Of a DNA stretch of 64,000 nt, positions 546 to 32,521 are shown one piece after another; position 1 is the stretch's first letter, and each line of letters starts with the position of its first letter. The stretch lies in contig CANLTE010000009.1 in assembly GCA_947493885.1 (NCBI GenBank), positions 29,945-93,944 of the forward strand. Reading direction: 5' to 3'. Source of the DNA: an uncultured Maribacter sp. (GTDB lineage: Bacteria > Bacteroidota > Bacteroidia > Flavobacteriales > Flavobacteriaceae). A program made the translations under genes and the position numbers. Under the pieces are notes generated by a model that was not told the DNA's origin, made no database searches, and was given only the letters and a program-made list of their open reading frames with translations.

Positions 546-609
546 TATTTTATTAGATGTTAACTATCATATAAAATTAGTGTTTAAATTACAACGAATA
601 AAACATTAA

Positions 610-2604: not shown

Positions 2605-2617
2605 TTTATTTTTTTAC

Positions 2618-2992
2618 TTATTTAACGCTGTTTTGAACTTCTATAAACTTTGCATCTCCCCATAAACCTTCAATGTCGTAGTATTCACGAACTTGCTTTT
2701 GAAAAACATGAACAACCACATTTACATAATCCATTAGCACCCACTCAGAATTGTCTGAGCCTTCTACGTGCCAAGGCTTATCTTGAATAGCTTTACTAAC
2801 AATTTTTTGGACAGATCCTACAATAGCGTTCACATGCGTGTTAGACGTACCATTACATATGATAAAGTAGTCACAAACGGTATTTTCTATTTCTCTAAGG
2901 TCTAGTAAACTTATATCTACTCCTTTTACTTCTTCTATTCCTTGTAAAATTAATGCAATTAATTCGTCTGCATTAGCTTGCGTTTTTTGCAT
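2618..2992 (-). CDS. rsfS: Ribosome silencing factor RsfS
   Basis: DYFIICNGTSNTHVNAI...WVLMDYVNVVVHVF typical of the RsfS/Iojap family; adjacent to ftsH. Confidence 0.95.
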   Translation of the reverse strand: MQKTQANADELIALILQGIEEVKGVDISLLDLREIENTVCDYFIICNGTSNTHVNAIVGSVQKIVSKAIQDKPWHVEGSDNSEWVLMDYVNVVVHVFQKQVREYYDIEGLWGDAKFIEVQNSVK

Positions 2993-3085
2993 TCAAAAAT
3001 TTTAGTTTATACAAAGTTATTGTTTTTTTGTTCTTTTAAGCCTAGTTTTTAACATTAGATTAAGGATAAATATACAAGACTTTTC

Positions 3086-3817
3086 ATGAACATAATCAAA
3101 CTTGATGCCACGGACTCTACAAATGCTTATTTAAAAGGGCTTATGCTGGTACAAAATCTTGAAGATTTTACCGTGGTAGTGGCAAAAAAACAACTAAATG
3201 GAAGAGGTCAAATGGGAACCACTTGGGAGTCTGAACCTGGTAAAAACCTAACCTTTAGTATTTTAAAAAGTAAAATTAATTTATCTACTCATAATCAGTT
3301 TGTTTTAAGCATATGTGTCTCTCTAGCTATATATAATGCCTTACATAAATTACAAATTCCAAAATTACGTGTTAAATGGCCAAACGACATTATGTCAGGT
3401 AACTGCAAAATTTGTGGTATTTTGATTGAAAATACACTAATTGGCGATACAATAGATTCATCTGTTATAGGAATTGGTCTTAATGTAAATCAAATAGTTT
3501 TTAATAATTTACCAAATGTAAGCTCCTTAAAACTGCTTTTAGGTAAAACTGTTAATTTAGAGGAGTTATTGCGTAACATAATATCCGATTTGCAAGGTGT
3601 TTTTCAACAGCAACAAAAGGAAGCTCAAATTAACCTATATAAGCGGTATGAATCGGTGATGTTTAAAAGACACAAACCTGCAACTTTTAAGTATACAAGC
3701 GGTGAGTTATTTACGGGATATATTCAAGGTGTCTCTAAAAGCGGTCAACTAAGAATACTGATTGAAGATGATATTATTAAGGAGTTTAGCTTAAAAGAAG
3801 TTACGCTTTTATATTAA
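3086..3817 (+). CDS. birA: Biotin--[acetyl-CoA-carboxylase] ligase
   Basis: STNAYL..., NGRGQMGTTWESEPGKNLTFS, VKWPNDI motifs. Confidence 0.95.
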   Translation: MNIIKLDATDSTNAYLKGLMLVQNLEDFTVVVAKKQLNGRGQMGTTWESEPGKNLTFSILKSKINLSTHNQFVLSICVSLAIYNALHKLQIPKLRVKWPNDIMSGNCKICGILIENTLIGDTIDSSVIGIGLNVNQIVFNNLPNVSSLKLLLGKTVNLEELLRNIISDLQGVFQQQQKEAQINLYKRYESVMFKRHKPATFKYTSGELFTGYIQGVSKSGQLRILIEDDIIKEFSLKEVTLLY

Positions 3818-4209
3818 CTAATTGAACTTAAATTTTCTGAAAGCGTATTCATAAAATTAGTAATTGGCTTTTTAATCATCATTGCCATCATGGCATTGAA
3901 TTCACCACTAAAATTAAGTTCTACTTCAGACTCATTTTCGCTGATACCCTTAATATTGGCTGTAAGTGTAAAAGGTAGTTTTTCACTGGCAGCACCCAAA
4001 ACAAGTTGCGAATTTGGCGTTTGCTCTTTTCTTTCAAGAACAATTTCTGGCATACCTTTTAGTGCAAACAAAAAACGATTTTCATTAATAACTTCAAACT
4101 TGTCAATGTTATCTGGCATTAACTTTTCAAAGTTTTCAAGATTCGTTAAAAACTCAAAAGTTGCAGCATTGCTTTTTTGAATTGTTTTTTTTGGTGTTTC
4201 TATAAACAT
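3814..4209 (-). CDS. SRPBCC-family (START-like) protein
   Basis: Size and fold-like pattern of the polyketide cyclase/SRPBCC family; conserved next to pyrE in Bacteroidota. Confidence 0.7.
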   Translation of the reverse strand: MFIETPKKTIQKSNAATFEFLTNLENFEKLMPDNIDKFEVINENRFLFALKGMPEIVLERKEQTPNSQLVLGAASEKLPFTLTANIKGISENESEVELNFSGEFNAMMAMMIKKPITNFMNTLSENLSSIS

Positions 4210-7195: not shown

Positions 7196-7271
7196 TTATT
7201 TACAAATTATAAATTGGACGCCTTAGCGCAATAATTTCAAATGCAAATGTAAATAAATTCCTTGGGTTTTA

Positions 7272-7679
7272 TTAACTGGCTAATTTGGTAATAGACATTA
7301 TATCCGCTTTTTTTATAGGCTTGTTGTTATACGTAATTTGGTGATGAGAACTATCTTTATAATGCACCCAATTATTATAGTCTGTTTCATCAATTGATGA
7401 GGTAACAACATTTATGCGAACTCTATCTTCAATAGGCAGATTTATAAATTCTTCTAAAAACTGCCATCCATCCATTATTGGCATATTAATATCTAGAAAA
7501 ATCACCTGCGGTAAAGGGTCATTATTTTTAACCATCTCCTTTATGCCGTTAATGGCTAACTGACCATTACCATACGTATTAATTTCGTCGCAATCTATTG
7601 ATGCTTTAAGCATTCTTTTAATACCGAAAACGGTAATTGGATCATCATCAATAATACAAATTGAGTTAATTTTTTTCAT
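7272..7679 (-). CDS. Response regulator receiver-domain protein
   Basis: IIDDDP, FLDINMPIMDGWQFL, TSS, NKPI receiver motifs. Confidence 0.93.
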   Translation of the reverse strand: MKKINSICIIDDDPITVFGIKRMLKASIDCDEINTYGNGQLAINGIKEMVKNNDPLPQVIFLDINMPIMDGWQFLEEFINLPIEDRVRINVVTSSIDETDYNNWVHYKDSSHHQITYNNKPIKKADIMSITKLAS

Positions 7680-9510
7680 TAAAATATATTTTAAAGGAGG
7701 TTCCTTTGCCTACTTCACTCTCCACAGTTATTTTTCCATTCATAGACTCAACCTGATTTTTAACAATGTACAGGCCAATTCCTTTAGCATTTTTGCGATT
7801 ATGGAATGTTTTGTACATGCCAAATAGCTTATCGCCATATTTGTTTAAATCTAATCCAATACCATTGTCCTCAATACTTATTACGGTATAGTCGTCTAGC
7901 TTTTCGCTGTTGATAGTAATAATAGGATTTCGAGTAGGAAATTTATATTTAACGGCATTAGTAATAAAGTTTGTTATGATATTGTCTGCGTACGCGGGAA
8001 CCACATTAATGTCAACGTTTTTTTCTACGTTACTTACAATAGTTGCTTTGTTTTTAAGTAGTACCGCAGATAAATTTTGTTTCACCCTTTCTAAAGCTTG
8101 GGTAAAGTTTACCTTTTCGCTCTTTAGGTTGTTGGAGCTAATTGCAACAACATCGTTTAAATTATCCAGCGTATCCAATAGGTTATTAGAAGCATCAGTA
8201 AGCATGCCTATAATGTTTAGCTTTTCGGTTTCATCGTTTTCGTTAGAAAGAAAATCTAAAAGCATTGAAAAGTTAGCTGTATGCGATCTTAAGTTGTGCG
8301 AAACAATGTGTGCGAAATTTATGAGTTTTTTGTTTTGAAGCGAGGTAACATCAATTAAGTTTCTTAATTCTTCCTCTTTTCTTTTCATGTTGGTGATATC
8401 CAAGCTTAACCCAACTAATCCGTACGCAATTCCATCATCATCTATTAACGGAATTTTTGATGTTAAGAAAGTAGTGTCAGAGCCTGTTCTTTTAGGGTCT
8501 AGAATTTGTTTGTTTAGAATAGGCTTAAGCGTAGTTAGCACCGTTAGGTCATCTTTTCTATTTAATTCCGCACTTTCTTTTGGGTAATGATCAAAATCGC
8601 TTTGACCAATAACTTCTTCCGCTGAACTGGCACCTAAAAATTCGTAGGCAGCTTTATTCACAAGTATTTTTCTAGAATCAAGATCTTTTAAATATACATG
8701 AACTGGAATATGATCAATTAAAGTTTTTAATAATTGTTCGCTTTCCTTTGTTTTGGCATTGGTAACCACTTGTTCGTTTATGTCTTGGAATGTTCCTACA
8801 AGACTTATTAACTTATCATTTTTGTATATAGGTTTGCCGGCTGCAATAACCCATTTTTCGTGACCTCTTCCGGTGATTATTTGTAGCTTTTCACACCATG
8901 GTTCACCATTTTGAACGGCCTCATAAATGACCATTGAAATGGTATTTCGGCTATGCCCTTCTTTGTAGAAATTAATACCACTTTCCAAAGTAGGCTCATA
9001 ATTGTCTTCTACTTCATGAATAGCACGTGTCATTTCACACCATTTTACCTCATCGGTTAAAAGGTCTAATTCCCAACTCCCAATTTTAGCAATTTCAGAT
9101 TTTTCTTTTAGTAGAAATTCCGTCTTTTCAAGACGTAACTCGGTTAAAATACTTTCTGTAATATCCTCAACTGTGGTAATTACGCCAATGATATTTTCAT
9201 TATCATCATACCATGGAATGTTACTCCAATTAAACCATTTTTCATTTTTTTTGTTAATAGTTACTCTTTGTACAATACTTACAGAAGGTTGAGCTTTTAT
9301 ACATTTTTTTAGCTCTGCTTCCCATTCCTCAGATACTGGGTTAAAAATGTCGTGAATTGTTTTTCCAAAGACGCTATGGTCAAAGCTTAAAAGCTTTATC
9401 CATTTATCTGAAGCATGAACCACCTCCAACTTCAAATTTAAAAATGCAGTAGCTACTGGTAATTGTTTTACCAAATAACTATTGATTGATAATTTGTTTT
9501 CCCTCAGCAT
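7666..9510 (-). CDS. Multi-PAS sensor histidine kinase
   Basis: Several PAS/PAC segments, H-box-like FAHIVSHNLRSHTANF, ATPase NAVKYKFP, EDNGIGLDL, GKGTSFKIYF. Confidence 0.93.
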   Translation of the reverse strand: MLRENKLSINSYLVKQLPVATAFLNLKLEVVHASDKWIKLLSFDHSVFGKTIHDIFNPVSEEWEAELKKCIKAQPSVSIVQRVTINKKNEKWFNWSNIPWYDDNENIIGVITTVEDITESILTELRLEKTEFLLKEKSEIAKIGSWELDLLTDEVKWCEMTRAIHEVEDNYEPTLESGINFYKEGHSRNTISMVIYEAVQNGEPWCEKLQIITGRGHEKWVIAAGKPIYKNDKLISLVGTFQDINEQVVTNAKTKESEQLLKTLIDHIPVHVYLKDLDSRKILVNKAAYEFLGASSAEEVIGQSDFDHYPKESAELNRKDDLTVLTTLKPILNKQILDPKRTGSDTTFLTSKIPLIDDDGIAYGLVGLSLDITNMKRKEEELRNLIDVTSLQNKKLINFAHIVSHNLRSHTANFSMLLDFLSNENDETEKLNIIGMLTDASNNLLDTLDNLNDVVAISSNNLKSEKVNFTQALERVKQNLSAVLLKNKATIVSNVEKNVDINVVPAYADNIITNFITNAVKYKFPTRNPIITINSEKLDDYTVISIEDNGIGLDLNKYGDKLFGMYKTFHNRKNAKGIGLYIVKNQVESMNGKITVESEVGKGTSFKIYFNEKN

Positions 9511-9741
9511 TATGTTGTAATTTCTTACTAAATTAATACGATTTTACATTATATGATAAGGTTTGTTGTGAACTAGCTTAAAGTAGTTGTGTTACTGTTA
9601 AAAAACAATGACAGTAAATAAAAACCTCCGAAAAAGAACGTTTTTTCTTACAAAATTATTGTTGAATTGTTTTGTGGAATATAAATATTGGTCAAGTAAA
9701 ATATCTTTAACGTACTTAAAAATACAGTAGTGGCGTGTTTT

Positions 9742-17756: not shown

Positions 17757-18562
17757 ATGTAAAGGAGTACCTAGGGGAATTACTAGGCACGTTTATACTG
17801 GTCTTTGTTGGTTGCGGTTCTGTAGCAGTTACCGTTTTGTTTCAAACCTTTGGAAGTCTATTAGAAGTAGCTTTAATTTGGGGTGTAGGAGTAGCTATAG
17901 CTATTTACGCTACAAAAAATATATGTCCCGCACATTTAAACCCTGCTGTTAGCGTTGCCATGTGTTGGGCAAAAAAACTTTCCCTAAAAAAACTTCCAGG
18001 GTACATACTTAGTCAAACCGTTGGTGCATTTCTAGCTGGTTTTTTATTGTATGCTATTTTTAAAGGAGATATTGCTGGTTATGAGCAGGCCAATGGCATA
18101 ATACGCGGTAGTTTAGCATCACAAGAAACAGCTATGATGTTTGGTGAATTTTTTCCTAATTCTGGCTATAAAGATACCTTAAAGGTATCAGTGCTTCTGG
18201 CTTGCATAATGGAGCTTTTAGGTACTTTTACACTAGTTTTTTCGATTTTTAAATTGACGGAAACTAAATTGAAAATAGGAAAATGGGCGCCAGTTTTTAT
18301 TGGATTAACGGTTACGTTAATAATATGTGTAGTTGCTCCATACACGCAAGCAGGATTAAACCCTGCTAGAGATTTTGGACCAAGAGTATTGGCGTATTTT
18401 GCTGGTTGGAATTTAGCTGCTTTTCCGCAAGTTTCATTTAGCTTTTTTACGGTGTATATAATTTCTCCCATTGTAGGAGGTATTGCCGCCTTTTATGTGC
18501 ATAGCTTTTCCAAAGCTTCTTTTTTTAAACAGAAAAACAAAGTGCTAAAATCTAAAATTTAG
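17753..18562 (+). CDS. MIP-family aquaporin/aquaglyceroporin (AqpS-like by context)
   Basis: Two NPA boxes (HLNPAVS, GLNPARDFGPR), six TM segments; 4-bp overlap with upstream phosphatase. Confidence 0.92.
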   Translation: MNVKEYLGELLGTFILVFVGCGSVAVTVLFQTFGSLLEVALIWGVGVAIAIYATKNICPAHLNPAVSVAMCWAKKLSLKKLPGYILSQTVGAFLAGFLLYAIFKGDIAGYEQANGIIRGSLASQETAMMFGEFFPNSGYKDTLKVSVLLACIMELLGTFTLVFSIFKLTETKLKIGKWAPVFIGLTVTLIICVVAPYTQAGLNPARDFGPRVLAYFAGWNLAAFPQVSFSFFTVYIISPIVGGIAAFYVHSFSKASFFKQKNKVLKSKI

Positions 18563-18762
18563 TTGGTGAACTAGTTTTCAGGATTTTAGTGAAAATCTGT
18601 TAAGCGTAACTTGTTAGTTTTATTGGCTAGTAATGTTATTTTGTTTTTTGAGCCGTAGCAGGCGCTACAGTTTTATTATTATACCGATATTTGCCCGGGA
18701 ATTTGTACTTTACCTTTGGTACAATTCAAAACAGACAATTTAAAGGTTGAAACTAGAAGAAT

Positions 18763-21309
18763 ATGCATCAATTACAGCGACAAAAAGATTTTAAAAAATC
18801 GGTAAGTAACAAGTTTAATGTCTACAATAGCTTGTTTTTAAACCTTCCGTATAGAAATATTGAGAATGTAGGAATGTTAATTCCTTTGATGCTGGATCAG
18901 TGTCAAAAAGGATTGGCATCTGGTCTTAATCCTAGAGAAATATTAGACGGGTTTTTTCAGAACTTTGTAAATATAGATTCAGAAAAGGAACGTATTGATT
19001 TTATGTTCAAAATCATTCAGTACGTTGAGCGTCAAGTTGTATTGTATGATAGTGTTGAAGATGCTGCTTTTCCAAAACTGCAAGAACATAGTACTAACCT
19101 TACTATTAAAGACTACTTTCAATTAGTAGATAAAAACAAAAGTTGGGATTTAATCGCAGATAAATTGTCCACCTTTAGTGCTAGAATTGTATTAACAGCA
19201 CACCCAACGCAGTTTTATAATAAATCTATATTAGATATTATTACCAATCTGCGATCACTAATTTTAGAAGATAAGATTGATGATATTGATGTTAAACTTC
19301 AGCAATTAGGATTAACATCGTTATTAAATTCTAAAAAGCCAACACCATTAGACGAAGCTAAAAACATAATATACATGTTACGTAATGTATATTATGATGC
19401 TATTGGTGATTTGTTTGCTTACATAAAAGAAAATATTAACAGAAACGATTTTGAAAATTACGATATCATGAAACTTGGTTTTTGGCCAGGTGGTGACCGT
19501 GATGGAAATCCGTTTGTAACCGCGGCAATAACCAATGATGTTGCTGATGAGCTGCGTGTTACTTTAATGAAGTGCTATTATAACGATTTAAAAAAGTTAC
19601 AAAACAAGTTAACTTTTAAAGATCTTCAAGAGCACATAAATGTACTACGAGCTAATTTGTATATCGCTATGTTTAATCCATCAAAAACGGTGGGTTATAA
19701 TGATATTATTGGGCCGTTAGAAATTATAAGAGAAATACTTGTTGCCAAGTATCACGGACTGTATATTAAAGAACTTGACCATTTTATGGATAAAGTTAGA
19801 ATCTTTAAAACGCACTTTGCAACTATAGATATCCGTCAAGACCACAGTATACATACTAAGGTTGTTGAAACCATTTTAAAGCAAAATGGTGTTGTTAAAG
19901 AAAGTATTACTGAGCTTTCAGATAAAGAGCTGGAGCAGGCACTTTTAACTAACGATTTTAGTTTGTCTCCCGATGATTACGAAGAAGAAATTGTAAAGGA
20001 TACTATTAAAAATATTATTCAGTTAAAAGACATTCAGGCTAAAAACGGAGAGCAAGGTTGTAACCGTTACATCATTAGTAATTCTGAAGATATTTTCTCA
20101 ATACTATTTGTACATACATTATTTAGATGGTGTGGTTGGAAAGCTGAGGACATTACTTTTGATATTGTTCCTCTTTTTGAAACCATGAAAGGTATGGATG
20201 GGGCAGAGGCAACTATGCAATATCTGTTCGATTTAAATCAGTATAACAGCCATATTAATCTTCGTAGTCGTAAGCAAACCATAATGCTGGGTTTTTCTGA
20301 TGGAACCAAAGACGGTGGTTATGTAAAAGCTAACTGGGAAATATTAAGAACCAAAGAAAAGCTATCATTTATATGTGCTCAAAACGATGTTAAAGTAGTA
20401 TTCTTTGATGGTCGTGGAGGACCGCCAGCACGTGGAGGAGGAAAAACGCATCGTTTTTACGCCGCTCAAACAAAAGACATTGCTAATAATGAGATACAGT
20501 TAACCATACAAGGGCAAACTATTACTAGTACATACGGTACAAAAGACCATTTTATGTACAATTGTGAGCAATTGTTAACAGCTGGACTTTCTAACAATAT
20601 TTTTGGTAACGAAAATGTAATTTCTGAAGAACACCGAGCATTGATAGATGAACTTTCTGCATTAAGTTTTACCAAGTACGATAACTTAAAGCAACACGAT
20701 AAGTTTATGCCTTATTTGGAGCACATGAGTACATTAAAGTACTATGGTAAAGCCAATATTGGAAGTAGACCAGGTAAGCGTGGAAATAAGGCTAAATTAG
20801 AGTTAACAGATTTACGTGCCATTTCGTTTGTAGGATCATGGAGTCAGTTAAAGCAAAATGTACCAGGATATTTTGGTATTGGTACGGCTTTAAAAACATT
20901 ACAAGATCAAGGTAGAATTGAAGAGGTAAAAACCTTGTTTAAAGAGGTGCCTTTCTTTAAAACCTTAATGTTGAATAGTATGATGGCGTTGTCTAAATGT
21001 CACTTTGGACTTACTAGTTACATGAAAAACAATGAGGAATATGGTGATTTCTGGATGATACTCTTTAATGAGTTTGAGCTTTCTAAAGAAATGTTGTTAT
21101 TAATTTCTGATATGGAAATTTTAATGGAACAAGAGCCTGTTTCTAGAGAGTCTGTAAAAATTAGAGAAAACATAGTGTTACCATTATTGGTAATTCAACA
21201 ATATGCTTTACAGAAAATAGGAGAAAAAACAAGCTTTAATGAGCTGTATGAAAAGATTGTTATTAGATCTTTATATGGTAACATTAACGCTAGTAGAAAC
21301 TCAGCTTAA
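18763..21309 (+). CDS. ppc: Phosphoenolpyruvate carboxylase
   Basis: LTAHPTQ, FWPGGDRDGNPFV, MLGFSDGTKDGGY, FFDGRGGPPARGGG, GSRPGKRG. Confidence 0.97.
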   Translation: MHQLQRQKDFKKSVSNKFNVYNSLFLNLPYRNIENVGMLIPLMLDQCQKGLASGLNPREILDGFFQNFVNIDSEKERIDFMFKIIQYVERQVVLYDSVEDAAFPKLQEHSTNLTIKDYFQLVDKNKSWDLIADKLSTFSARIVLTAHPTQFYNKSILDIITNLRSLILEDKIDDIDVKLQQLGLTSLLNSKKPTPLDEAKNIIYMLRNVYYDAIGDLFAYIKENINRNDFENYDIMKLGFWPGGDRDGNPFVTAAITNDVADELRVTLMKCYYNDLKKLQNKLTFKDLQEHINVLRANLYIAMFNPSKTVGYNDIIGPLEIIREILVAKYHGLYIKELDHFMDKVRIFKTHFATIDIRQDHSIHTKVVETILKQNGVVKESITELSDKELEQALLTNDFSLSPDDYEEEIVKDTIKNIIQLKDIQAKNGEQGCNRYIISNSEDIFSILFVHTLFRWCGWKAEDITFDIVPLFETMKGMDGAEATMQYLFDLNQYNSHINLRSRKQTIMLGFSDGTKDGGYVKANWEILRTKEKLSFICAQNDVKVVFFDGRGGPPARGGGKTHRFYAAQTKDIANNEIQLTIQGQTITSTYGTKDHFMYNCEQLLTAGLSNNIFGNENVISEEHRALIDELSALSFTKYDNLKQHDKFMPYLEHMSTLKYYGKANIGSRPGKRGNKAKLELTDLRAISFVGSWSQLKQNVPGYFGIGTALKTLQDQGRIEEVKTLFKEVPFFKTLMLNSMMALSKCHFGLTSYMKNNEEYGDFWMILFNEFELSKEMLLLISDMEILMEQEPVSRESVKIRENIVLPLLVIQQYALQKIGEKTSFNELYEKIVIRSLYGNINASRNSA

Positions 21310-21330
21310 ATTATAGAATAATATATAAAG

Positions 21331-21533
21331 TTGTAGATTCTCCTGAACAAGTGGAAAAACCCTCCTGAGCGATGTGAAAATCGGTTTGGAAAAAGCTAAA
21401 TCTACAAACTCTCCTGAGTGATTGTAAAAAACGCTCATGAAATAAGTTTATAAAAACCTCTTGAGCGATTAGAAGGATTTCTCAAGAAAATAAGTTTATA
21501 AAAACCTCCTGAGCGAAGACGAAGGAGGTTTTT
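21331..21533. repeat. Degenerate ~48-bp direct-repeat array ending in a terminator hairpin
   Basis: CTCCTGAG-type core at 21340, 21362, 21411, 21458, 21506; near-identical 28-mers AATAAGTTTATAAAAACCTC(T/C)TGAGCGA at 21441-21468 and 21489-21516. Confidence 0.75.
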
Positions 21534-21535
21534 TT
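21500..21535 (+). terminator. Rho-independent terminator downstream of ppc
   Basis: AAAACCTCC-tgagcgaagacgaa-GGAGGTTTTTTT. Confidence 0.75.
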
Positions 21536-21716
21536 GTCCCTCCAAACCCCCACCCTGTAGGAAAAAGTGCCCAGTTTTAAACATTTGGTTGATAAGTATT
21601 TGGGGTGTTACGCATTTCTGTTTTATTTATATCTGATTTTAAAAGTAATTTACTTTATTAATTATAATCTTTTTCTTGCTATTTATTTAAAGATTTAAAA
21701 ATAACATTGAACAGGT

Positions 21717-24700
21717 ATGATAAACACCTCAATAGAACATAATCTTCGTGAATACCTCAGAAAAATTGATGATGAAGGAGTATTCAATAAGCAGGATGAG
21801 AAGCTAAACGCAGAGGACTTCTTTATGCGTCTATTTGAGTTGGTTTACAATTGGAAGAATTTAATCAACCTAAACTATAGCGAAGCTAATTCTGCCGGAA
21901 TTGACTTGTATGAAACTAGAAAAGGAATTGCAATCCAAATCACAGCACAACAAAGTAAAGAGAAGGACAAAATTAAAGACACAATTGAGAAAACAATCAA
22001 ACACCATAAATCAAAATCAATTAACAAAATTATTTGCTTCTTTGTAAGAGATAACGAAGGTTTAAAAAACATAAGCGAAGAAGAACTATCAAAAGAATAT
22101 GGTTTTAAAATAACAATCGCTACAACAAAACAAATCATAGGTGATTTTCAAAGAATAACTTCTCCTGAAAAGAGATATAGAATAGAAGAAATAGTAGAAC
22201 AAGAGCTTTCACCTCAATTTATAGGATTAGGTTCCGTTTACCATTTCAAAAAGTTTAATAATAGAAATACAAATCAAGAATATTTAACACCTCCTGAAGC
22301 GATATATTTTTCAACTTTTGAAAAAAAGAAGATTAAAGAAGTTGCATCACTTTTCAACAAAAACCAAACAAAAGAATACGCAATACTGGGTAATCCTTGT
22401 AGTGGAAAAACAACATTAGCGGAAGCTGTTTATAAAAACTTTATTCCTCACTTTCGAAATAGGACATTTTATCTAGACTTATCAGACCCCGATACTAATT
22501 TCAATAATGTACTTGATGAAATTGGAAAACTATCTTTCTATCGCTCGACATTAGTAATAGATAATGTTCACGAAAACATAGGTTTGTTCAAAAAAATTCG
22601 AGAAAGAATCAGAACTTTTGAATGGATAAAAGCTATCTATTTATCAAGGTATTACAACTCGTTTCGTGAAGAAGATAAGAATTCAATTTTCAATGTTTTT
22701 AACGACATTAAACAATTTAGATACAATCCTGATATAGAATTTGATGAAAAGGTTTCAGGAATAATAAATAACAGAATTTATAAGTTAAAAAGCGACTACT
22801 CTGAATTTAGTTGGTACAAAGGAGATTTTGAGACAATTTTAAAGAACACGAACAGAAATTTATTAAAGTTAAATATTGCTCTTGAAACTTGGATTTCGTC
22901 AATAAAAAAGGGTAATGATTTAAAATTTGATCAAGTTAACAATGATAGAATTTATGAGTATTTCTACCAACAGCACAGGTTAAAAGAATTTGATGAAGAA
23001 CTATTGTTTTTATATTCTTTTCTTTTCAGCCGGGACATTTCATTCTTAAGAATGAAAAATAAAAATGACGAATTTAGGAAGCTAAAGGAAAAGGGAATTA
23101 TATTAAACTACTCAACAAGTGATTACTATTATTTTCCTCATAAAGACTATGCATACCTAATTTATCAAACCTTGATTAAAGAAAAAGGGTTAGGCACTGA
23201 CAATTTAATAGAATTACTTAACAATTACATTCGTAATCATAGAACTGAATCGGAACTAAATATTACGGAGTTAATAGTAAAACTATCTATTTCAGAACAA
23301 TTTGAAATTACTAGGCGGTTACTGAATAATGAAATAGTTCTAGACCTATTTAGCGACAAATTCAAAAGGAATATTCGCCCATTTGAAGTGTTCCAGTTAC
23401 AAAAAATGTTTTTTCGGTCATTCGATTATTTGAACAGTGAAAATCAAATACTGTATTATAATTTATTTATAAAGTACTATTTAAATAATAAACTAGAGTT
23501 ATACGTCTATAGGGATTATTCTGTATATAGCAATTTGCTCCAAATTGCAAATCAGTTAAACGTAGAGCTTGGAAATATCATAAAAACACTCCGAATTAAT
23601 GAGCAAGCAAATACTAATTCTATTACAGAATTAACAATGAGGATTAGTAAAAAGAAAGCCACACCGGAAACGGTTAACAGAATTTTAAATTCATTTGATT
23701 TCTCAGAGTGGTTGACAATGATTGAAAAGTTGCCAACTCTTTCAAGAATCACGAACTCACTTTCTGAATTAAATACCTCACCACTATCTAAGAAGTTATT
23801 GTTCGGGATTATAAATAACTTAAACATTGAACAACTTGCGCGAAAAAGCGAAAATCTAAAAACTGTTCAAATTGGAAAGTCAATAAGAGAACTAGAAAAA
23901 ATTGATATATCTCTAGGAACTAATGTTGCTAAAAATCTATTGTATAAATTATCGAAAGGCTTAAAGTTATCTCAATCGAATCTATCAGATTTTGCAAAGA
24001 GCTTATCTGATTTATCGTCAATTGCACCTGATTTGATTAAAATAGAACTTGAAAAAAGTTTAAAAAATGGAACATTTTATAAGCTACTTGAAAATGAAAA
24101 AAGCTTAAGTAATTTATCAGCTCGGTTATTAGAATTAAATACCACGATCAAGGAAGATAAAGAGCCATTTTTGAAGATAACAAATGAATTTTTAGCTTCT
24201 GAAAAATCCAAGGCTCTAATCAAAAATGAAAATAACATTAATAGCCTGCTAATATTCTATGAAATAGTCAAAAAGAAACAAATTCAAATTTCTGAACATA
24301 TATCTTATATACTCTTGAATAGTACAAAGCAGCAGATTTTAAACTGTGATTTCAATATTACAATTTTATCTAATCCAAAAGCCCTGAACCTACCTGAGCT
24401 TAAGAATAAAATCCAAAATGAAATATCTGCTGACCTACTTAACAAGGTTATTAATGGTTCAAAATTTACTGTTACAAAATCGCTATTTCTTGTTTTAAAC
24501 AGAGTAGATGAAGCAAAAACAACAAAAGCACTGAATATGTCAGATATGAATATCTTATGTACATCAATGTGTCATAAACAACTTAATATCAGCCAGTCTA
24601 TTGATGCTTTGTACACAATAATGAACAAAACATTTATTGATAATGACTTGAACTCAATAAAATTTTGTTCTAACCTATTAGATAGGTATCTAACTTTACA

Positions 24701-25205
24701 ACGTGCAAACACGTTCCAATACAATAGATTAAACTTTGGGGATTTTTTGAAAGCCTTTGACTTTTCGTTAAAAATTAATTTTGATGTAGCCATAAAACAT
24801 TTTGAAAATGACTTTCTAAAAAAATTAAAAGTATCTAATAACAAAAATTTGACCATTTCTTCACTATTTCAATCATTACGTAGAATAGAGGATTTGACTA
24901 AGAGTAAATACAAAAAGGAAATCAAAGAGTTTTTAAAATTGTATAAGCCAAAGTTTTTAAATGGAATCAAAAACGAGGACTTAGCCAAAACAACATCAGG
25001 ACTAGTCGAATTGAGTAAATGTGACTTAAAGGAATATGCGGACGAGTTACTCTATGATGCTAAAAATGTTGTTCTAAATAAAATAAAGCAATTGAATGGA
25101 GACAAAATATTGAAAGCAAAAATAATCCCTGACATTGAAAAGATTGCGGTTGGAAAATCTAAAATATTGATAAAGGAAATTAAAGTGAGCAAATATAATT
25201 TGTGA
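21717..25205 (+). CDS. SMEK-like domain / STAND-like NTPase / helical-repeat protein; candidate anti-phage (Avs-like) protein
   Basis: N-term ...GIDLYETRKGIAIQITAQQSKEKDKIKDTI; Walker A GNPCSGKTT; Walker B-like STLVIDN; sensor-like AIYLSR; winged-helix-like YYFPHKDYAYLIYQ; ~40-41 aa repeats in the C-terminal half. Confidence 0.8.
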   Translation: MINTSIEHNLREYLRKIDDEGVFNKQDEKLNAEDFFMRLFELVYNWKNLINLNYSEANSAGIDLYETRKGIAIQITAQQSKEKDKIKDTIEKTIKHHKSKSINKIICFFVRDNEGLKNISEEELSKEYGFKITIATTKQIIGDFQRITSPEKRYRIEEIVEQELSPQFIGLGSVYHFKKFNNRNTNQEYLTPPEAIYFSTFEKKKIKEVASLFNKNQTKEYAILGNPCSGKTTLAEAVYKNFIPHFRNRTFYLDLSDPDTNFNNVLDEIGKLSFYRSTLVIDNVHENIGLFKKIRERIRTFEWIKAIYLSRYYNSFREEDKNSIFNVFNDIKQFRYNPDIEFDEKVSGIINNRIYKLKSDYSEFSWYKGDFETILKNTNRNLLKLNIALETWISSIKKGNDLKFDQVNNDRIYEYFYQQHRLKEFDEELLFLYSFLFSRDISFLRMKNKNDEFRKLKEKGIILNYSTSDYYYFPHKDYAYLIYQTLIKEKGLGTDNLIELLNNYIRNHRTESELNITELIVKLSISEQFEITRRLLNNEIVLDLFSDKFKRNIRPFEVFQLQKMFFRSFDYLNSENQILYYNLFIKYYLNNKLELYVYRDYSVYSNLLQIANQLNVELGNIIKTLRINEQANTNSITELTMRISKKKATPETVNRILNSFDFSEWLTMIEKLPTLSRITNSLSELNTSPLSKKLLFGIINNLNIEQLARKSENLKTVQIGKSIRELEKIDISLGTNVAKNLLYKLSKGLKLSQSNLSDFAKSLSDLSSIAPDLIKIELEKSLKNGTFYKLLENEKSLSNLSARLLELNTTIKEDKEPFLKITNEFLASEKSKALIKNENNINSLLIFYEIVKKKQIQISEHISYILLNSTKQQILNCDFNITILSNPKALNLPELKNKIQNEISADLLNKVINGSKFTVTKSLFLVLNRVDEAKTTKALNMSDMNILCTSMCHKQLNISQSIDALYTIMNKTFIDNDLNSIKFCSNLLDRYLTLQRANTFQYNRLNFGDFLKAFDFSLKINFDVAIKHFENDFLKKLKVSNNKNLTISSLFQSLRRIEDLTKSKYKKEIKEFLKLYKPKFLNGIKNEDLAKTTSGLVELSKCDLKEYADELLYDAKNVVLNKIKQLNGDKILKAKIIPDIEKIAVGKSKILIKEIKVSKYNL

Positions 25206-25413
25206 GGCGAAATAAAACTTCGATGAATTTTCCTTGAAATTTGAATACTGATATACCTTAATATCAACAGAATGGAACCCCCAGCTATCGTTCGTTTGTA
25301 ACGAGTGCCCGCAAGTAATATATACTTATAGGAGTATTTAAAAGTGTGAGTGGATATAGATAAGTTAATACTCAAAAAACTGTTATCATTCGAATATTAA
25401 GGTTTTATAATTT

Positions 25414-26013
25414 TTATCGCGCTTCTTTTTTCAATAACCAAGACATACTTATAGCTAATGCACCGTATGCAGCTCCAATTCGCTCTTCTCTTTTATATGG
25501 AGCAACTTTAGCAATTATTCGTGCAGGTGATTTTGATTCCCAAAGAATATTTTCTGGGTTATCTATTTCATATAATTTAAGGGCTACTTCTATTTTAGAA
25601 GGCTGTGAAAACCCTACATTATATCCAGGATATACCCATAGGGTTTGAACATGTAAATTATATTTAGCATCGGGATTGTTTCTTAAAACGGTAATTTTCC
25701 TTTTTTTGGGTAATGCCTGATTAATGTATTTAATAAATAAAGGTGCATATACAGTATCTCTATCAGCAAACCAAGAGCTTCTAAAAATTTCACCTGATCC
25801 AGGATTATGTTCTTCTCTAAGTTTTACTTTGTTTTTTATGAACTCTTCCTCTGTGGGGTAACCATGTACTTTCATATTTTCATACCCAAAAGTAACGGAA
25901 AGTTGTTTTTCACCAGCTAGTACAGAAATATCTCCAGATGCAGTTTTTATTTTTTGACTTAAAAGAGGTGCTATGCAAAAAATAATTAGAATAGTGGTAA
26001 GTAAATTTTTCAT
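25414..26013 (-). CDS. Hypothetical exported protein
   Basis: Signal peptide MKNLLTTILIIFCIAPLLSQK; likely start at 26013 rather than the ORF-track start 26070. Confidence 0.65.
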   Translation of the reverse strand: MKNLLTTILIIFCIAPLLSQKIKTASGDISVLAGEKQLSVTFGYENMKVHGYPTEEEFIKNKVKLREEHNPGSGEIFRSSWFADRDTVYAPLFIKYINQALPKKRKITVLRNNPDAKYNLHVQTLWVYPGYNVGFSQPSKIEVALKLYEIDNPENILWESKSPARIIAKVAPYKREERIGAAYGALAISMSWLLKKEAR

Positions 26014-26272
26014 GTGTTTTATGGTATTGTGTAAAGCAAACTTAAAAATTATACAACAACTAAAAGGCATGAGTACAACTTTTTACCTTTTTAATTACGA
26101 GGAATATGGTTTGTATTGTAAGAATTTATACGGGATTACAAATCGCAGTATTTGTTAATTCCGTTGGAGAAAACATTAAACTATTTGTGGGAGATATTTA
26201 GCTGAGGTTAAACATTATTGACTAGTTTGAAAACAACATATTCCATTATCTTTACCGCTTCAAAAAGCATGA

Positions 26273-27229
26273 ATGTCGTACCAATTGTTATCCTCTCCTT
26301 TACAAGGTTTTACTGATTATATTTTTCGTAATGCGCAGCAGCATTTTTTTGGAGGAATAGATACCTATTATGCGCCTTACATACGGTACAATAAAAAAAT
26401 GGTAATAAAGGGATCATACCAACGCGATTTAAATCCTGAAGTAAATACTAGTTTAGAAGTTATACCGCAGGTGATGACCGCCAGTGCTGATGAATTTTTG
26501 CATACTATAAAGTACATTCAATCTTTAGGATATACAGAGCTTAATTGGAATTTAGGTTGTCCGTACCCTATGGTAACAAAAAGCGGCATGGGCTCTGGAC
26601 TTATTTGTAATACGGAAAAAATAGACCATATTTTAGATCGTGCGCATACCGAAACCAATGTTACCATTTCTATGAAAATGCGTTTAGGATATGAGAATAG
26701 CAATGAAATTTTAGACGCTTTTGCGGTATTAAATAAGTATCCGCTTAAAAATGTGGCAATACATGCTCGTTTGGGGAAACAATTGTACAAAGGTGGTGTA
26801 GATTTAGATGCATTTCAAGAATGTATAGATGTAGCAAAACATACCTTATATTATAACGGTGATATTACTACTGTAGCAGCGTTTAAGGCGCTTCGAGAAC
26901 GTTTTCCATCAATTAACCATTTTATGATTGGTAGAGGACTCATTGCTGACCCATTTTTGCCGAGCATGATAAAAGCAGATACTACCGTGTACCCTGCTAA
27001 TCGCTGGGATATTTTTAAAGAATTTCATGATACTATTTATAGTCAGTACGATGCTAAACTTTCTGGACCAACACCAATAAAAATGAAAATGCAGGGTTTT
27101 TGGGAGTTTTTTTCAAAGTCTACACACAATCCTCAAAAAGTATTTAAGGCAATTAAAAAAGCAGGAAACCCTTATAAATATAGAAATGCCGTTGAAGAAA
27201 TAATTGCAGCTCAAAAAAATAATAGATAG
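26273..27229 (+). CDS. tRNA-dihydrouridine synthase family protein
   Basis: SSPLQGFTDYIFR, NLGCPYPMVTKSGMGSGL, MKMRLGY, HARLGKQLYKG, GDI, GRGLIADP. Confidence 0.92.
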   Translation: MSYQLLSSPLQGFTDYIFRNAQQHFFGGIDTYYAPYIRYNKKMVIKGSYQRDLNPEVNTSLEVIPQVMTASADEFLHTIKYIQSLGYTELNWNLGCPYPMVTKSGMGSGLICNTEKIDHILDRAHTETNVTISMKMRLGYENSNEILDAFAVLNKYPLKNVAIHARLGKQLYKGGVDLDAFQECIDVAKHTLYYNGDITTVAAFKALRERFPSINHFMIGRGLIADPFLPSMIKADTTVYPANRWDIFKEFHDTIYSQYDAKLSGPTPIKMKMQGFWEFFSKSTHNPQKVFKAIKKAGNPYKYRNAVEEIIAAQKNNR

Positions 27230-27241
27230 TACTTATATCAT

Positions 27242-27544
27242 CTACAACTTAACACCCTTTACCAAAAAAGATGATTTTATAGCGTCATTTTTAAGATGTA
27301 AAAAGGATTTTCTGCGTTCGTCATTAGAAAAATTTACAAAATCCTGCTCAGAATTAAATGAAACAAAATGAATTTCGTAGGGCAACTCTTCTTCACTAGT
27401 AATGTAATTATCTTGCGTAGGTCTTAAACGGTAAATTAGTTTGCCGTTGTAATCACTAATAATAGGAATAGCTAGTGCTTCAAACTCATTAAAAACAGCT
27501 TCTTTTCCTTCTTTAATAAAAATTAACTGAGTAATGTAAATCAT
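27242..27544 (-). CDS. Small DUF1330-like / dimeric alpha-beta barrel protein
   Basis: MIYITQLIFIKEGKEAVFNEFEALAIPIISDYNGKLIYR pattern. Confidence 0.6.
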   Translation of the reverse strand: MIYITQLIFIKEGKEAVFNEFEALAIPIISDYNGKLIYRLRPTQDNYITSEEELPYEIHFVSFNSEQDFVNFSNDERRKSFLHLKNDAIKSSFLVKGVKL

Positions 27545-27581
27545 GCTTTTTAGGATTGTAAAACCTGTTAAAATGATGGTA

Positions 27582-28220
27582 CTATTGCTTTGCAGACAAC
27601 ACTAAATTTTTGAATCTTCCAGAAGACCCAAATCCTGTCCATAATCCAATTTTATCGGAGGTAGTTTTCGTTAACCTTTCTACTTCTAAAAAAGGGGCCT
27701 CTTCATCATTTAAATAAACCAATACTTTAGTGTCCGTTACGGCAATTGTGGCTTTAAACCAGTTATCGGGTTGTGGAGGTGTTTTTAATTCGGCTTCAAA
27801 CTCACCAGTTCTTTGGTTTCGTAATTTGTGCCATGTATATGTAGGGTGGTGTATGTATTGCACCATGTGACTTCTGCGATTGGGTTGTTCAGCTACAAAG
27901 TTAAAAGGTCTAAAATATACAGCTTCATAGGTAGAATCGTTTTGAATATTAAAAGCCAGTCCAACAAAACTTTTACCAGGGTTGTTTTCTCCTTTTATTT
28001 CAATGGTGGCTGAGCCTGTTTTAAACGAAGTTTCCTTTAAAATTGCAAGTCCGTCTCCTTCACGAGCATCTAGCTCAATTGCACTAGTTTCGTAAGCTGC
28101 AATTTCGCGATTTACAACCGTTATATGATTTGATTTTAGTTGCTCTTTTAAGTTAATGGTTTGTCCAAAGGAAGTTAATGTTACACATAGTGTACTTACT
28201 AAAAAGATTGCTTTTTTCAT
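27582..28220 (-). CDS. Exported concanavalin-like (DUF1080-like) protein
   Basis: Signal peptide; FVGLAFNIQNDSTYEAVYFRPFNF, WHKLR, VYLNDEEAP, IGLWTGFGSSGRFKNL. Confidence 0.75.
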   Translation of the reverse strand: MKKAIFLVSTLCVTLTSFGQTINLKEQLKSNHITVVNREIAAYETSAIELDAREGDGLAILKETSFKTGSATIEIKGENNPGKSFVGLAFNIQNDSTYEAVYFRPFNFVAEQPNRRSHMVQYIHHPTYTWHKLRNQRTGEFEAELKTPPQPDNWFKATIAVTDTKVLVYLNDEEAPFLEVERLTKTTSDKIGLWTGFGSSGRFKNLVLSAKQ

Positions 28221-28269
28221 GTTTTGATTGATTTGATGATTGATGAATTTGTTTATATATGATACAATT

Positions 28270-28797
28270 TTATTCCGTTTTTTTAAGTAAAAAATTATGA
28301 GGTTTATCTACGATGCGTTTTAAAGTAGCAATTTGTCCACAGTGCCACATTACATGTTTTACATTCCAATCTATTGCCTCAAATTTAGTTTTAGCAACAG
28401 GATGTTCTACTTTACCCGGAACCAGTTTTTCTTGAAGTTGAGCCATGGTTACACTGTTAATGCTTTTGAGTGATTTTTCCATGAGAATATTCAAATGATT
28501 CAATAAGTCTGATGCCGTAGCTTTACTGGCTGAATTTTTTGGAGCACTGCCATATGCATATAACTCTGAATATTGTTTAAGGGGAACTTCATCAAAAACG
28601 TCTTTATCATGTCCGTTAATAACCAATATGGAGTGATAATACATGCTAATTACTAAATGCCCTACTTGCCAACTTATATTAGATTCTAAAACATCTGTAG
28701 TAGTGTTCCAACTAGTTTCTGGGATATTAGTAACCAATTTGTTTACCCAATCATAAGCATCTTTGGTTTGTTTACTTAATATTTCAATTGCAGTCAT
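28270..28797 (-). CDS. DinB-family protein
   Basis: SWQVGHLVISMYYHSILVI, HVMWHCGQIATLKRI (conserved His pattern). Confidence 0.8.
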   Translation of the reverse strand: MTAIEILSKQTKDAYDWVNKLVTNIPETSWNTTTDVLESNISWQVGHLVISMYYHSILVINGHDKDVFDEVPLKQYSELYAYGSAPKNSASKATASDLLNHLNILMEKSLKSINSVTMAQLQEKLVPGKVEHPVAKTKFEAIDWNVKHVMWHCGQIATLKRIVDKPHNFLLKKTE

Positions 28798-28807
28798 TGT
28801 TTAGTAA

Positions 28808-30301
28808 TTACATAGGGTTACTTAAAATGCTATAAAATACTTGGATTCCGTAAGCTATTTGTCCAATTTTAATGTTCTCATTGGGGCTGTGTTGATTATT
28901 ATCTGGGTTCACCATTGGAACTATAAAAGCAGGAATTTTTAATTGGTTGATAAATGGTGCAATAGGTACTGTGCCACCCATTGTTCTTATTTGAACAGGA
29001 TTTTGGCTAAATGTATTTGTTAATGTTTTTACTAAAAAATTGCCGTAAGGGTTATCTAAATTAGTCCTAAAAGCATCAGTAACAGAACCTTCTTTTACCA
29101 GAATAACTTTGTTATGTGCCATTCTTGTTTTTTTGTCGGGTTCTACATCTGTGATGTAAAAACCTTGTTTTTCGATATGCTTTTTTACCAAGTTTTTTAA
29201 ATGTGTTCCATCAGTTTCAGGAACCAATCTAATATCAATTTCAGCTGTAGCACTTTCAGGAACAATGGTTCTCGCTTTTTTTCCAACCCAGCCAGAGTGT
29301 AATCCTCTAACATTTAACGATGGGTATTGTAGTGCTTCTTGATAAAAGCTACCTACCTTTTCTGGGCTTTTTATAGCAAGGTTATTATTAATTACGTCAA
29401 AATCATCAGGAACACTTTTTAAAACGTTTAGTGTGTTTTCATCAAAAGTTATTCCGTCATAATAACCGTCAATAGTTACTTTTCCTTCATGGTCTTTCAT
29501 ACTTGCTAAAACTTCAGCTAGCTGAAAACCTGGATTTGGAGCATAATTTCCGTAATGTCCACTATGTTGAGGTTTTATTGGACCATAAGTGGTTAGGGTA
29601 AGAGTGGTAATTCCGCGACAACCATAAACAATGGTTGGTTTTTCGGTAATGTGAACAGGGCCGTCATTAATTATTAGAAAATCGGACTGTAACAGTTCGC
29701 TATATTCTTTAACAGCTTTGGGTAAAGGCTTACTACCTTTTTCCTCTTCAGAATCTAAAATTACTTTAACATTAAAAGGAATATCAACCTTGTTTTGTTG
29801 TAGCAGGTCAATGGTATTTAAAAGCATTACAATAGGGCCTTTATCATCGGAGGTTGATCGCCCAAAAAGTCTAAAATCATAGTTTAAATTAGCATTAAGC
29901 GTATCAATAGGAAGGGTTTCCCAAGTATCATTTTTTTTAGATTTTAAAACTACTTCATAGGGGCTGGGTTGATCCCATTTGGATGGGTCAACGGATTGTC
30001 CATCAAAATGCATATAAAATAATATGGTTGGCTTGTTATCTTCCATCGGAAGTGCTGCAAAAAAAAGAGACTCCCCAGAAGTGGGTAGCACGGTAGAGTT
30101 AAAACCTCTGGCATTAAATTTTTGGGTTAACCAAGTTATGTTTCTGTTAATATCGGCATGATCTAAAGCATCATTAGGTATGGCTATAAACTCTTTGAGT
30201 TCTGCAATGCTTTGGCGGACTTTGTTCTTTAGTTGTAACGTGTCTTGGGCAACCAAAGTATTTGTAATAAGTGCAAGTAATAGGAGTACTATTTTTCTCA
30301 T
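28808..30301 (-). CDS. M20-family peptidase, exported
   Basis: ILFYMHFDGQSVD, GRSTSDDKGPIVM, ILDSEEEKGS, PDNNQHSPNENIKIGQI; start at MRKIVLLLL (30301). Confidence 0.9.
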   Translation of the reverse strand: MRKIVLLLLALITNTLVAQDTLQLKNKVRQSIAELKEFIAIPNDALDHADINRNITWLTQKFNARGFNSTVLPTSGESLFFAALPMEDNKPTILFYMHFDGQSVDPSKWDQPSPYEVVLKSKKNDTWETLPIDTLNANLNYDFRLFGRSTSDDKGPIVMLLNTIDLLQQNKVDIPFNVKVILDSEEEKGSKPLPKAVKEYSELLQSDFLIINDGPVHITEKPTIVYGCRGITTLTLTTYGPIKPQHSGHYGNYAPNPGFQLAEVLASMKDHEGKVTIDGYYDGITFDENTLNVLKSVPDDFDVINNNLAIKSPEKVGSFYQEALQYPSLNVRGLHSGWVGKKARTIVPESATAEIDIRLVPETDGTHLKNLVKKHIEKQGFYITDVEPDKKTRMAHNKVILVKEGSVTDAFRTNLDNPYGNFLVKTLTNTFSQNPVQIRTMGGTVPIAPFINQLKIPAFIVPMVNPDNNQHSPNENIKIGQIAYGIQVFYSILSNPM

Positions 30302-30341
30302 TTTGTGTTCTGAAATATTCAACACATAAATGTAGTCATTT

Positions 30342-30566
30342 CTATTTTTTGAACCTTGCCATTAACTTTAAAATAACTAACCTAATTAATAATACAAATG
30401 GGAAGCCATGGAGTAGCACATCAAACCAATCTTTACCGCTCATGCCAACTGCTCCACCTGCAATCCATTTTATTTTTCCAAGCAAATGCGGTTCTGGAAA
30501 AAAAGGAGCCATGCCTAAGACTAGGCATAGCAGTATCATTAGTTTCCAGTTGTTTATAAATTGCAC
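30342..30566 (-). CDS. Small membrane protein following trpA
   Basis: 74 aa, two hydrophobic helices, starts 5 bp after the trpA stop. Confidence 0.65.
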   Translation of the reverse strand: MQFINNWKLMILLCLVLGMAPFFPEPHLLGKIKWIAGGAVGMSGKDWFDVLLHGFPFVLLIRLVILKLMARFKK

Positions 30567-30571
30567 TATAA

Positions 30572-31333
30572 TTATCTGATGGCTTTTACAAAATTCGCAA
30601 TCTCATTTATCCCTGTCGTGTTTAAATGTTTGATAAACGCAGATCCAATAATAGCGCCTTTTGCTGTTTTGGTAGCCTGATTAAATGTTTCTTTATCTTT
30701 AATTCCAAAACCAACTATTTGAGGATTGTTCAAATTCATTTTGGCAATTCTATTAAAATAATCTTCTTGAGTATTACCAAAACCTGATTGAGAACCTGTT
30801 ACTCCTGCGGAACTTACCATATAGATAAATCCGTTTGAGGCAGCATCAATTTGTCTTATACGGTCATCTCCTGTTTGCGGTGTAATTAAAAAGATATTAA
30901 GTAAGCCATGCTTTTCAAAAATTGCTTTGTACTCCCTTTCATAAACATCTAAAGGAAGGTCCGGAATAATTAATCCATCAATACCAATTTCGGCACATTT
31001 GGCACAAAATGCTTCAACGCCATATTGTAGCATTGGGTTAAAATACCCCATGATTATAAGTGGAATGTTTACCGACGTTCTAATATCTTTTAATTGATTG
31101 AAAAGAATTTCGGTTGTCATGCCATTTCTTAATGCAATTGTGGAGCTTTCTTGAATTGTGGGTCCGTCAGCTAAAGGATCAGAAAAGGGGAGTCCGATCT
31201 CAATAAAATCAACGCCATTTTTTTCTAAATCTTGAATAATTGATACGGTATCATTAAGTGAAGGAAAGCCCGCACTAAAATATATAGAGAGTAATTTTTT
31301 GTCCCCTTGTAGCTTTTGTTGAATTCTGTTCAT
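30572..31333 (-). CDS. trpA: Tryptophan synthase alpha subunit
   Basis: YFSAGFPSLNDT, FIEIGLPFSDPLADGPTIQ, GLIIPDLP. Confidence 0.97.
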   Translation of the reverse strand: MNRIQQKLQGDKKLLSIYFSAGFPSLNDTVSIIQDLEKNGVDFIEIGLPFSDPLADGPTIQESSTIALRNGMTTEILFNQLKDIRTSVNIPLIIMGYFNPMLQYGVEAFCAKCAEIGIDGLIIPDLPLDVYEREYKAIFEKHGLLNIFLITPQTGDDRIRQIDAASNGFIYMVSSAGVTGSQSGFGNTQEDYFNRIAKMNLNNPQIVGFGIKDKETFNQATKTAKGAIIGSAFIKHLNTTGINEIANFVKAIR

Positions 31334-31339
31334 AATATT

Positions 31340-32521
31340 TTAAAGCTTAAAATATTTTATATAATTATCTAAATCTTTATCACCACGACCTGATAGGCTA
31401 ATTACAACCACATCATCTGGTTTAAAGGTTTTGTGTTTAAAAACGGCAAGTGCATGACTACTTTCAATAGCAGGAATAATACCTTCTAGTTTGGTAAGTT
31501 CTAATCCGGCTTGCATGGCTTCATCATCAGTTGCGGAAACAAATTCTGCCCTTCCTGTTTTATGTAAATGAGCATGCATTGGGCCAACACCAGGATAATC
31601 TAAACCAGCAGAGATTGAATATGGCTCTGTAATTTGTCCATCTTTGGTTTGCATTAATAAGGTTTTGCATCCGTGTATAACACCTTCTTTTCCTAATGCT
31701 GATGTTGCGGCACTTTCACCAGAATCAATTCCTAATCCAGCAGCCTCAACGGCAACAATGTTAACATCTTCTTCATGTAAATAATGGTAATAAGTACCTG
31801 CGGCATTACTACCACCACCAATACAAGCAATTACATAATCAGGATTTTCACGACCTTCTTTTTCTTTTAGTTGCCATTTAATTTCTTCGGAAATAACTGA
31901 CTGAAAACGAGTCACCATATCTGGATAGGGGTGAGGACCAATCGCCGAACCAATAATGTAATGGGTGTCTACTGGGTTATTAATCCAATCGCGAATAGCT
32001 TCGTTAGTAGCATCTTTTAGGGTTCTACTCCCGGACATTGCAGGTTTTACCTCTGCGCCTAACATTTTCATTCGGGCAACGTTTGGTGCTTGACGAGCAA
32101 TATCTATCTCACCCATATATACAATACATTCAATCCCCATTAAAGCGCAAACCGTTGCTGTTGCAACTCCGTGTTGACCTGCTCCTGTTTCGGCAATAAT
32201 ACGCTTTTTGCCAAGACGCTTTGCCATTAATATTTGCCCAATGGTGTTATTTACTTTATGCGCTCCAGTATGGTTTAAATCTTCTCTTTTTAAATAGACT
32301 TTAGTGTTGTACTTTTTTGATAATCGCTTTGCGAAATACAATGGGGAGGGTCTGCCAACGTAATCTTTTAATAATTGGTCAAACTCTTCTTTAAAAGAAG
32401 GTTCAGCCATTATTTTAAGGTATTGTTGTCTGAGATTTTCTACGTTGGGATAAAGCATTTCAGGGATAAAAGCTCCTCCAAAATCGCCATAATACCCTTT
32501 TTCGTCAACGTTATAATTCAT
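31340..32521 (-). CDS. trpB: Tryptophan synthase beta subunit
   Basis: YFGDFGGAFIPE-like start, LNHTGAHKVNN, AETGAGQHGVATATV, GGGSNAAG. Confidence 0.98.
   Translation of the reverse strand: MNYNVDEKGYYGDFGGAFIPEMLYPNVENLRQQYLKIMAEPSFKEEFDQLLKDYVGRPSPLYFAKRLSKKYNTKVYLKREDLNHTGAHKVNNTIGQILMAKRLGKKRIIAETGAGQHGVATATVCALMGIECIVYMGEIDIARQAPNVARMKMLGAEVKPAMSGSRTLKDATNEAIRDWINNPVDTHYIIGSAIGPHPYPDMVTRFQSVISEEIKWQLKEKEGRENPDYVIACIGGGSNAAGTYYHYLHEEDVNIVAVEAAGLGIDSGESAATSALGKEGVIHGCKTLLMQTKDGQITEPYSISAGLDYPGVGPMHAHLHKTGRAEFVSATDDEAMQAGLELTKLEGIIPAIESSHALAVFKHKTFKPDDVVVISLSGRGDKDLDNYIKYFKL

Follow-up and report, generated by a model that had tools for sequence, protein, structure and literature searches.

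The single gene and its surroundings

The window, i.e., the whole stretch of 64,000 nucleotides from a marine flavobacterium analyzed in this study, contains an open reading frame at 21717-25205 (+) that starts with ATG, runs without internal stop and encodes a protein of 1162 aa. The ORF was originally predicted to be a single-gene defence system with an N-terminal effector, a central NTPase and a C-terminal repeat region, and all motifs quoted in that prediction were found in the sequence. Orthologs exist, and we describe the gene as a candidate defence gene encoding a SMEK nuclease, a STAND-like NTPase and helical repeats in one chain.

The gene is monocistronic. The upstream gene ppc ends at 21309, and an intrinsic-terminator-like hairpin with a T-run (21500-21536, +; −14.3 kcal/mol) divides it from the cassette. 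Degenerate repeats (CTCCTGAGCGA and variants) are located 3' of ppc (window 21340-21540), and some of them fold as terminator-like hairpins; repeats of this type are also found in the nearest relative, G004, in a different copy number. With a GC content of 28.5% the SMEK-STAND-like gene differs from the window (33.5%). The downstream gene (25414-26070, −) is convergent, lies on the opposite strand and encodes a putative exported protein of 218 aa with no Pfam match. It was considered as a partner, however this idea was dropped because no copy adjoins the orthologs, and it is probably not part of the system. Thus, the gene indeed stands alone between ppc and an unrelated exported-protein gene, as had been proposed. 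No Argonaute gene was detected among the neighbouring ORFs.

Domain organization of the 1162-aa protein

The N-terminus (aa 6-132; 21732-22112, +) matches the SMEK_N models of Pfam (PF21941, E=5.1e-24, 85.2 bits against a cut-off of 27) and NCBIfam (NF033859, E 6e-18, 64.5 bits against a cut-off of 30), which bears out the SMEK-like region proposed earlier. It includes SAGIDLYETRKGIAIQIT at aa 59-76, and the PADLOC model Aga_REase (pAgo-associated REase) matches aa 9-268 (1.8e-19). When 12 SMEK domains taken from proteins of differing architecture were aligned, E33, L49, N51, N53, N58, D63, Q74 and K85 were invariant. Among these, E33 (21813-21815, +) is a putative active-site residue, D63 of GIDL (21903-21905, +) a putative metal ligand, Q74 of Q(I/V)(T/S) (21936-21938, +) the putative (E/Q)xK position and K85 (21969-21971, +) a putative migrated catalytic lysine. 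In a PDB profile search, the profile of this alignment retrieved 26bh (E 6.8e-49), which was deposited as the Mrr domain of the Kordia jejudonensis Mrr-APAZ pAgo; the 1162-aa protein as a lone query reached the same entry at 3.5e-5, and E33, D63, Q74 and K85 align with the same residues in 26bh. Judged by this homology, and with a low-confidence model of its own, the SMEK N-terminus has an Mrr/PD-(D/E)XK nuclease fold. The nuclease-like fold, whose absence had been named as a reason to give up the prediction, was therefore recovered together with its putative catalytic residues.

All 12 SMEK domains carry T or S at the position of the classic (E/Q)xK lysine. We infer that E33, D63, Q74 and K85 form a PD-(D/E)XK site in which the lysine is shifted into the following helix. 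The same Q-x-T/S motif could be read as a sign that SMEK has no catalytic activity and serves only to bind nucleic acids; the protein would then be an NTPase with a signalling or regulatory role and no nuclease step. However, K85 in the next helix is invariant, as are E33 and D63, and the complex of SMEK-APAZ and KjAgo has a collateral nuclease activity, albeit weak, on both dsDNA and ssDNA (PMC12205087). This domain type is thus active in at least one case, and we regard a dead SMEK as very improbable.

The central region contains, on the forward strand, the Walker A motif GNPCSGKTT (aa 225-233; 22389-22415), which is invariant in the orthologs except for T/S at 232, a Walker B-like region TLVIDNVHE (aa 278-286; 22548-22574), a sensor-like KAIYLSR (aa 305-311; 22629-22649) with invariant S310-R311 and a winged-helix-like region (aa 427-488; 22995-23180) with an invariant FPH (473-475). 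The stretches quoted originally are located at aa 225-239 (GNPCSGKTTLAEAVY), aa 276-287 in the Walker B region (RSTLVIDNVHEN), aa 304-313 (IKAIYLSRYY) and aa 456-484 (LKEKGIILNYSTSDYYYFPHKDYAYLIYQ). The order GNPCSGK[TS]T, hhhh[DE]NVH[DE]N, Y-h-S-R sensor-like strand and FPH in the wing-like segment is kept in the six sequences compared. The Walker B residue D282 (22560-22562) is Glu in four of these six sequences, an unusual feature among P-loop NTPases.

No STAND or NACHT family of Pfam was found above its cut-off for the NTPase region; NACHT gave no match, and the weak similarity to nSTAND_NTPase5 around Walker A-B (E 0.04, 14.3 bits; E 0.008 for the homolog L008) stays below the curated cut-off of 34. 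Using hhalign, the region aligned with the NTPase of a SIR2-STAND protein over 111 columns (probability 90.6), the remaining NTPase comparators aligned essentially in the P-loop region alone, and the NTPase of the Mrr-STAND-like protein L056/L065 did not align. A separate AlphaFold model of the NTPase was rejected (pLDDT 41, unrelated top matches in Foldseek). Motifs, domain order, the moderate profile match and a Foldseek search with the low-confidence full-length model (see below) point to a STAND-like NTPase, a name given by motif and layout, with family membership unproven. Of the STAND NTPase proposed earlier, the ordered motifs and the layout therefore stand, whereas an assignment by Pfam or PADLOC family does not. 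Likewise, the winged-helix-like segment retains its conserved FPH, but its fold is not confirmed by the low-confidence model.

The remaining part of the protein (aa 494-1160; 23196-25196, +) is predicted to be an all-helical repeat region and is the putative sensor. In agreement with the long helical C-terminus expected, dozens of short helices make up nearly all of the predicted model between about residues 310 and 1160. Local confidence is highest at residues 670-870 (pLDDT about 65-83), while the full-length model overall is of low confidence (pLDDT 53, pTM 0.28). When this model was compared with 350,542 PDB chains in Foldseek, the best two matches were Avs4 chains bound to phage portal (8dgf; E 1.1e-5 and 1.8e-5, probability 1.00), followed by generic solenoids from 3e-4. 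The Avs4 matches are a pointer and not a proof, because their TM is low (0.14) and the query model is of low confidence. A PDB sequence search with the NTPase-repeat body returned nothing credible, and no Avs sequence was found in the PDB profile search. In comparisons with the orthologs, conservation is among the highest in aligned columns 641-720 and among the lowest in columns 801-880. Taken as a whole, the protein has a tripartite layout of effector, NTPase and repeats.

Distribution, same-site replacement and effector exchange

We identified six full-length orthologs (57-71% identity). The gene is absent from all seven congeners, it is carried by four of 400 genomes of the family (the window's own genome counted), and three GTDB loci carry it with 69-71% identity. 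Across 351 genomes of the family and 396 of the phylum, the NTPase-repeat body was not found with other effectors. Two weak body matches (near 0.002-0.008), one of them beside or in an Eco57I-type methylase, were rejected, and a match in the congener G006 (L002; E 3e-4, 31% over 88 aa) was judged to be probably due to chance.

In G004, a variable segment (21654-26229) that also includes the exported-protein gene is replaced by another candidate defence cassette, PDC-M43. The flanks are 95.7% identical (window 18001-21653 and 26230-32000), with blastn breakpoints at 21653/26230, and between them G004 carries PDC-M43A and PDC-M43B (receiver and HATPase proteins; PADLOC E 6e-74 and 1e-135) as well as a TPR protein. 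The three genes occupy 7255-9599 of the G004 locus (L037), and the third, TPR gene has no PADLOC match. In other congeners, GmrSD/HEC-06 (G007) and an OLD/GajA-like ATPase-TOPRIM (G005) were detected 3' of ppc. About 5 kb 3' of ppc, the congener G002 (L039) encodes an uncharacterised P-loop ATPase of 706 aa (2082-4202, −), without Pfam match and without PADLOC match at E<=0.001, which is possibly an unrecognised defence gene. Strict same-site replacement was assigned to G004 only, because the interval in the more distant congeners includes ordinary genes too. The cassette ends have no direct repeats of at least 10 bases in common, and thus no mobile-element boundary was recognised. Given its absence from every congener and the occupation of the same site by PDC-M43 in G004, the gene is not vertically conserved; strict vertical conservation at this locus had been named as a further reason to give up the prediction. 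A patchy distribution and a defence-locus setting, by which anti-phage systems are recognised, were both observed, and the region just 3' of ppc is a place to seek further defence cassettes in the genus.

Mrr-type nucleases frequently work in type IV restriction. A DNA-sensing, restriction-like protein would fit the Mrr-like SMEK domain and the type IV enzyme GmrSD, which one congener encodes downstream of ppc. In such a protein, as in McrBC-type or other type IV systems, DNA that is foreign or modified would be recognised by the solenoid or SMEK, and its cleavage or translocation would be driven by the NTPase. However, a Pfam search of the 1162-aa protein found no DNA-recognition domain, and an NTPase ahead of a wing-like segment and some 650 aa of helices better fits protein-sensing STANDs. 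We therefore consider a restriction-like function unlikely.

The protein might also act against plasmids or further kinds of mobile DNA instead of phages, or mobile elements might keep the gene as a selfish toxin-like module. Three orthologs are found in surroundings of this kind: G129/L026 is near DUF5712/mobilisation-like genes, transposase-like ORFs adjoin G165/L023, and L004 adjoins a Gp49/HTH pair. Moreover, short-pAgo systems are able to target plasmids (PMC10810196). On the other hand, no homologs were found in 72,556 plasmid records, 50,697 phage records and viral contigs, the window contains no antitoxin-like partner of the gene, and the same site in G004 is occupied by PDC-M43. A role of this type is therefore improbable. 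A defence role of the 1162-aa protein is likely. A further ortholog, L005/L025, adjoins an ABC-3C system and KAP NTPase genes; the ABC-3C operon (HNH-CTD11, MC7, DUF2326 ATPase; L005 6364-8940) is located just upstream of the ortholog and the KAP NTPase further upstream.

Over residues 161-1162, the orthologs L005 and L007 are 89-92% identical (aa), but only 56% identical over residues 1-160, where L007 is nearest to L008 (65%). The best breakpoint between L005 and L007 lies at codon 153, with a log-likelihood gain of 76.4 compared with a maximum of 12.3 in 1000 permutations. The pair is a natural effector swap by recombination at the boundary between effector and NTPase. From residue 861 to the end, L004 is 61% identical to the window protein and L005 74%, whereas the NTPase region shows the reverse (L004 69%, L005 66%); a second recombination in the L004 sensor is possible on these identities.

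SMEK was also found on APAZ-type proteins by short pAgo, on ABC-3C CTD10 and on a SMEK-NACHT-like-helical protein. Because the breakpoint coincides with a domain boundary and SMEK occurs on varied proteins, effector modularity is directly visible in the data. The SMEK-NACHT-like gene of L066 (3820-6777, −; 985 aa) is overlapped by a downstream ORF of 1280 aa (1-3841, −), and the pair is possibly a two-gene SMEK system. In L067 (174-9000), SMEK-APAZ-like and short-pAgo-like genes are flanked by a restriction-like gene on one side and a GmrSD/DUF262-like gene on the other; here an ABC ATPase precedes the SMEK-APAZ/pAgo-like genes, and the locus is a defence island.

Proposed mode of action and relation to known systems

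We propose, with a probability of roughly 70%, that the protein is a self-contained NLR/Avs-like one-gene anti-phage sentinel, in which a SPARDA-type SMEK nuclease is triggered via a STAND switch. At rest, the long helical solenoid at the C-terminus would, together with the NTPase module, keep the SMEK domain inactive. Binding of a conserved phage component to the solenoid would then cause the STAND switch to exchange its nucleotide and to oligomerise. The clustered SMEK domains might degrade DNA with an active site of E33, D63, Q74 and K85, and this would either halt the phage directly or kill the cell. Nuclease activity of the 1162-aa protein, oligomerisation, phage trigger and outcome are all inferred, and recognition of a phage protein is putative, by likeness to Avs. 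To our knowledge, no phage phenotype is known for the SMEK-STAND-like protein family. Judged by layout, effector and locus, the protein most likely works as Avs does, with SMEK replacing the Avs nucleases. Very probably, it represents a previously unrecognised one-gene virus alarm with an architecture like that of human NLR immune receptors. More speculatively, and at even odds in our estimation, the family may be a distinct STAND clade outside NACHT and the Avs modelled in PADLOC, in which a SPARDA-type SMEK is wired to a protein sensor and the effector is swapped at its junction with the NTPase while the sensor stays constant, guarding flavobacteria against a conserved phage component.

In the papers that we found, the SMEK nuclease is described with short Argonautes only. 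Our data suggest that it is a portable effector that also occurs in NLR-like sensors and in ABC-3C, and so one nuclease module may serve immunity of both the RNA-guided and the protein-sensing kind. The effector swap with its breakpoint at a domain boundary is a natural experiment, in which the evolution of the effector is seen to be separable from that of the sensor.

Avs4 (AVAST type 4, 8dgf) likewise unites a nuclease effector, a STAND NTPase and a long helical-repeat sensor in one polypeptide. Its effector is of the Mrr type, whereas the effector here is SMEK. In general, STAND proteins consist of an N-terminal effector, a central NTPase and a C-terminal sensor, and Avs1-Avs4 mediate altruistic death by their nucleases on recognising terminase, portal or Ksap1 (PMC12931631). 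The tripartite layout thus agrees with the comparison to Avs made at the outset, but no Avs model of PADLOC 2.0 matched; the matches at E<=1 were Aga_REase, mad8, PDC-S01 and Cas2 only. The protein is not filed as Avs because no Avs HMM reports it. In PADLOC, the Mrr-STAND-like protein L056/L065 matched PDC-M54 and not Avs. A SMEK-NACHT-like-helical protein of 985 aa from another family of the phylum (L016/L066) also has SMEK followed by a P-loop NTPase; however, its NTPase aligns at the P-loop only, a partner ORF lies downstream of it, and the body search found no link between the two proteins. ABC-3C with SMEK-CTD10 (L011) has the SMEK effector in common, but ABC-3C is a multi-component system with an ABC ATPase, whereas the system described here is a single gene. 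Finally, SPARDA, i.e., the SMEK-APAZ short pAgo (KjAgo, 26bh), contains a SMEK/Mrr nuclease domain that is homologous and conserves the same residues. No APAZ domain was found in the 1162-aa protein by Pfam or PADLOC, in which the Aga_REase match is confined to the SMEK and linker part; where SPARDA uses APAZ and an adjacent short Ago, the 1162-aa protein has a STAND-like NTPase and, as its putative sensor, helical repeats.
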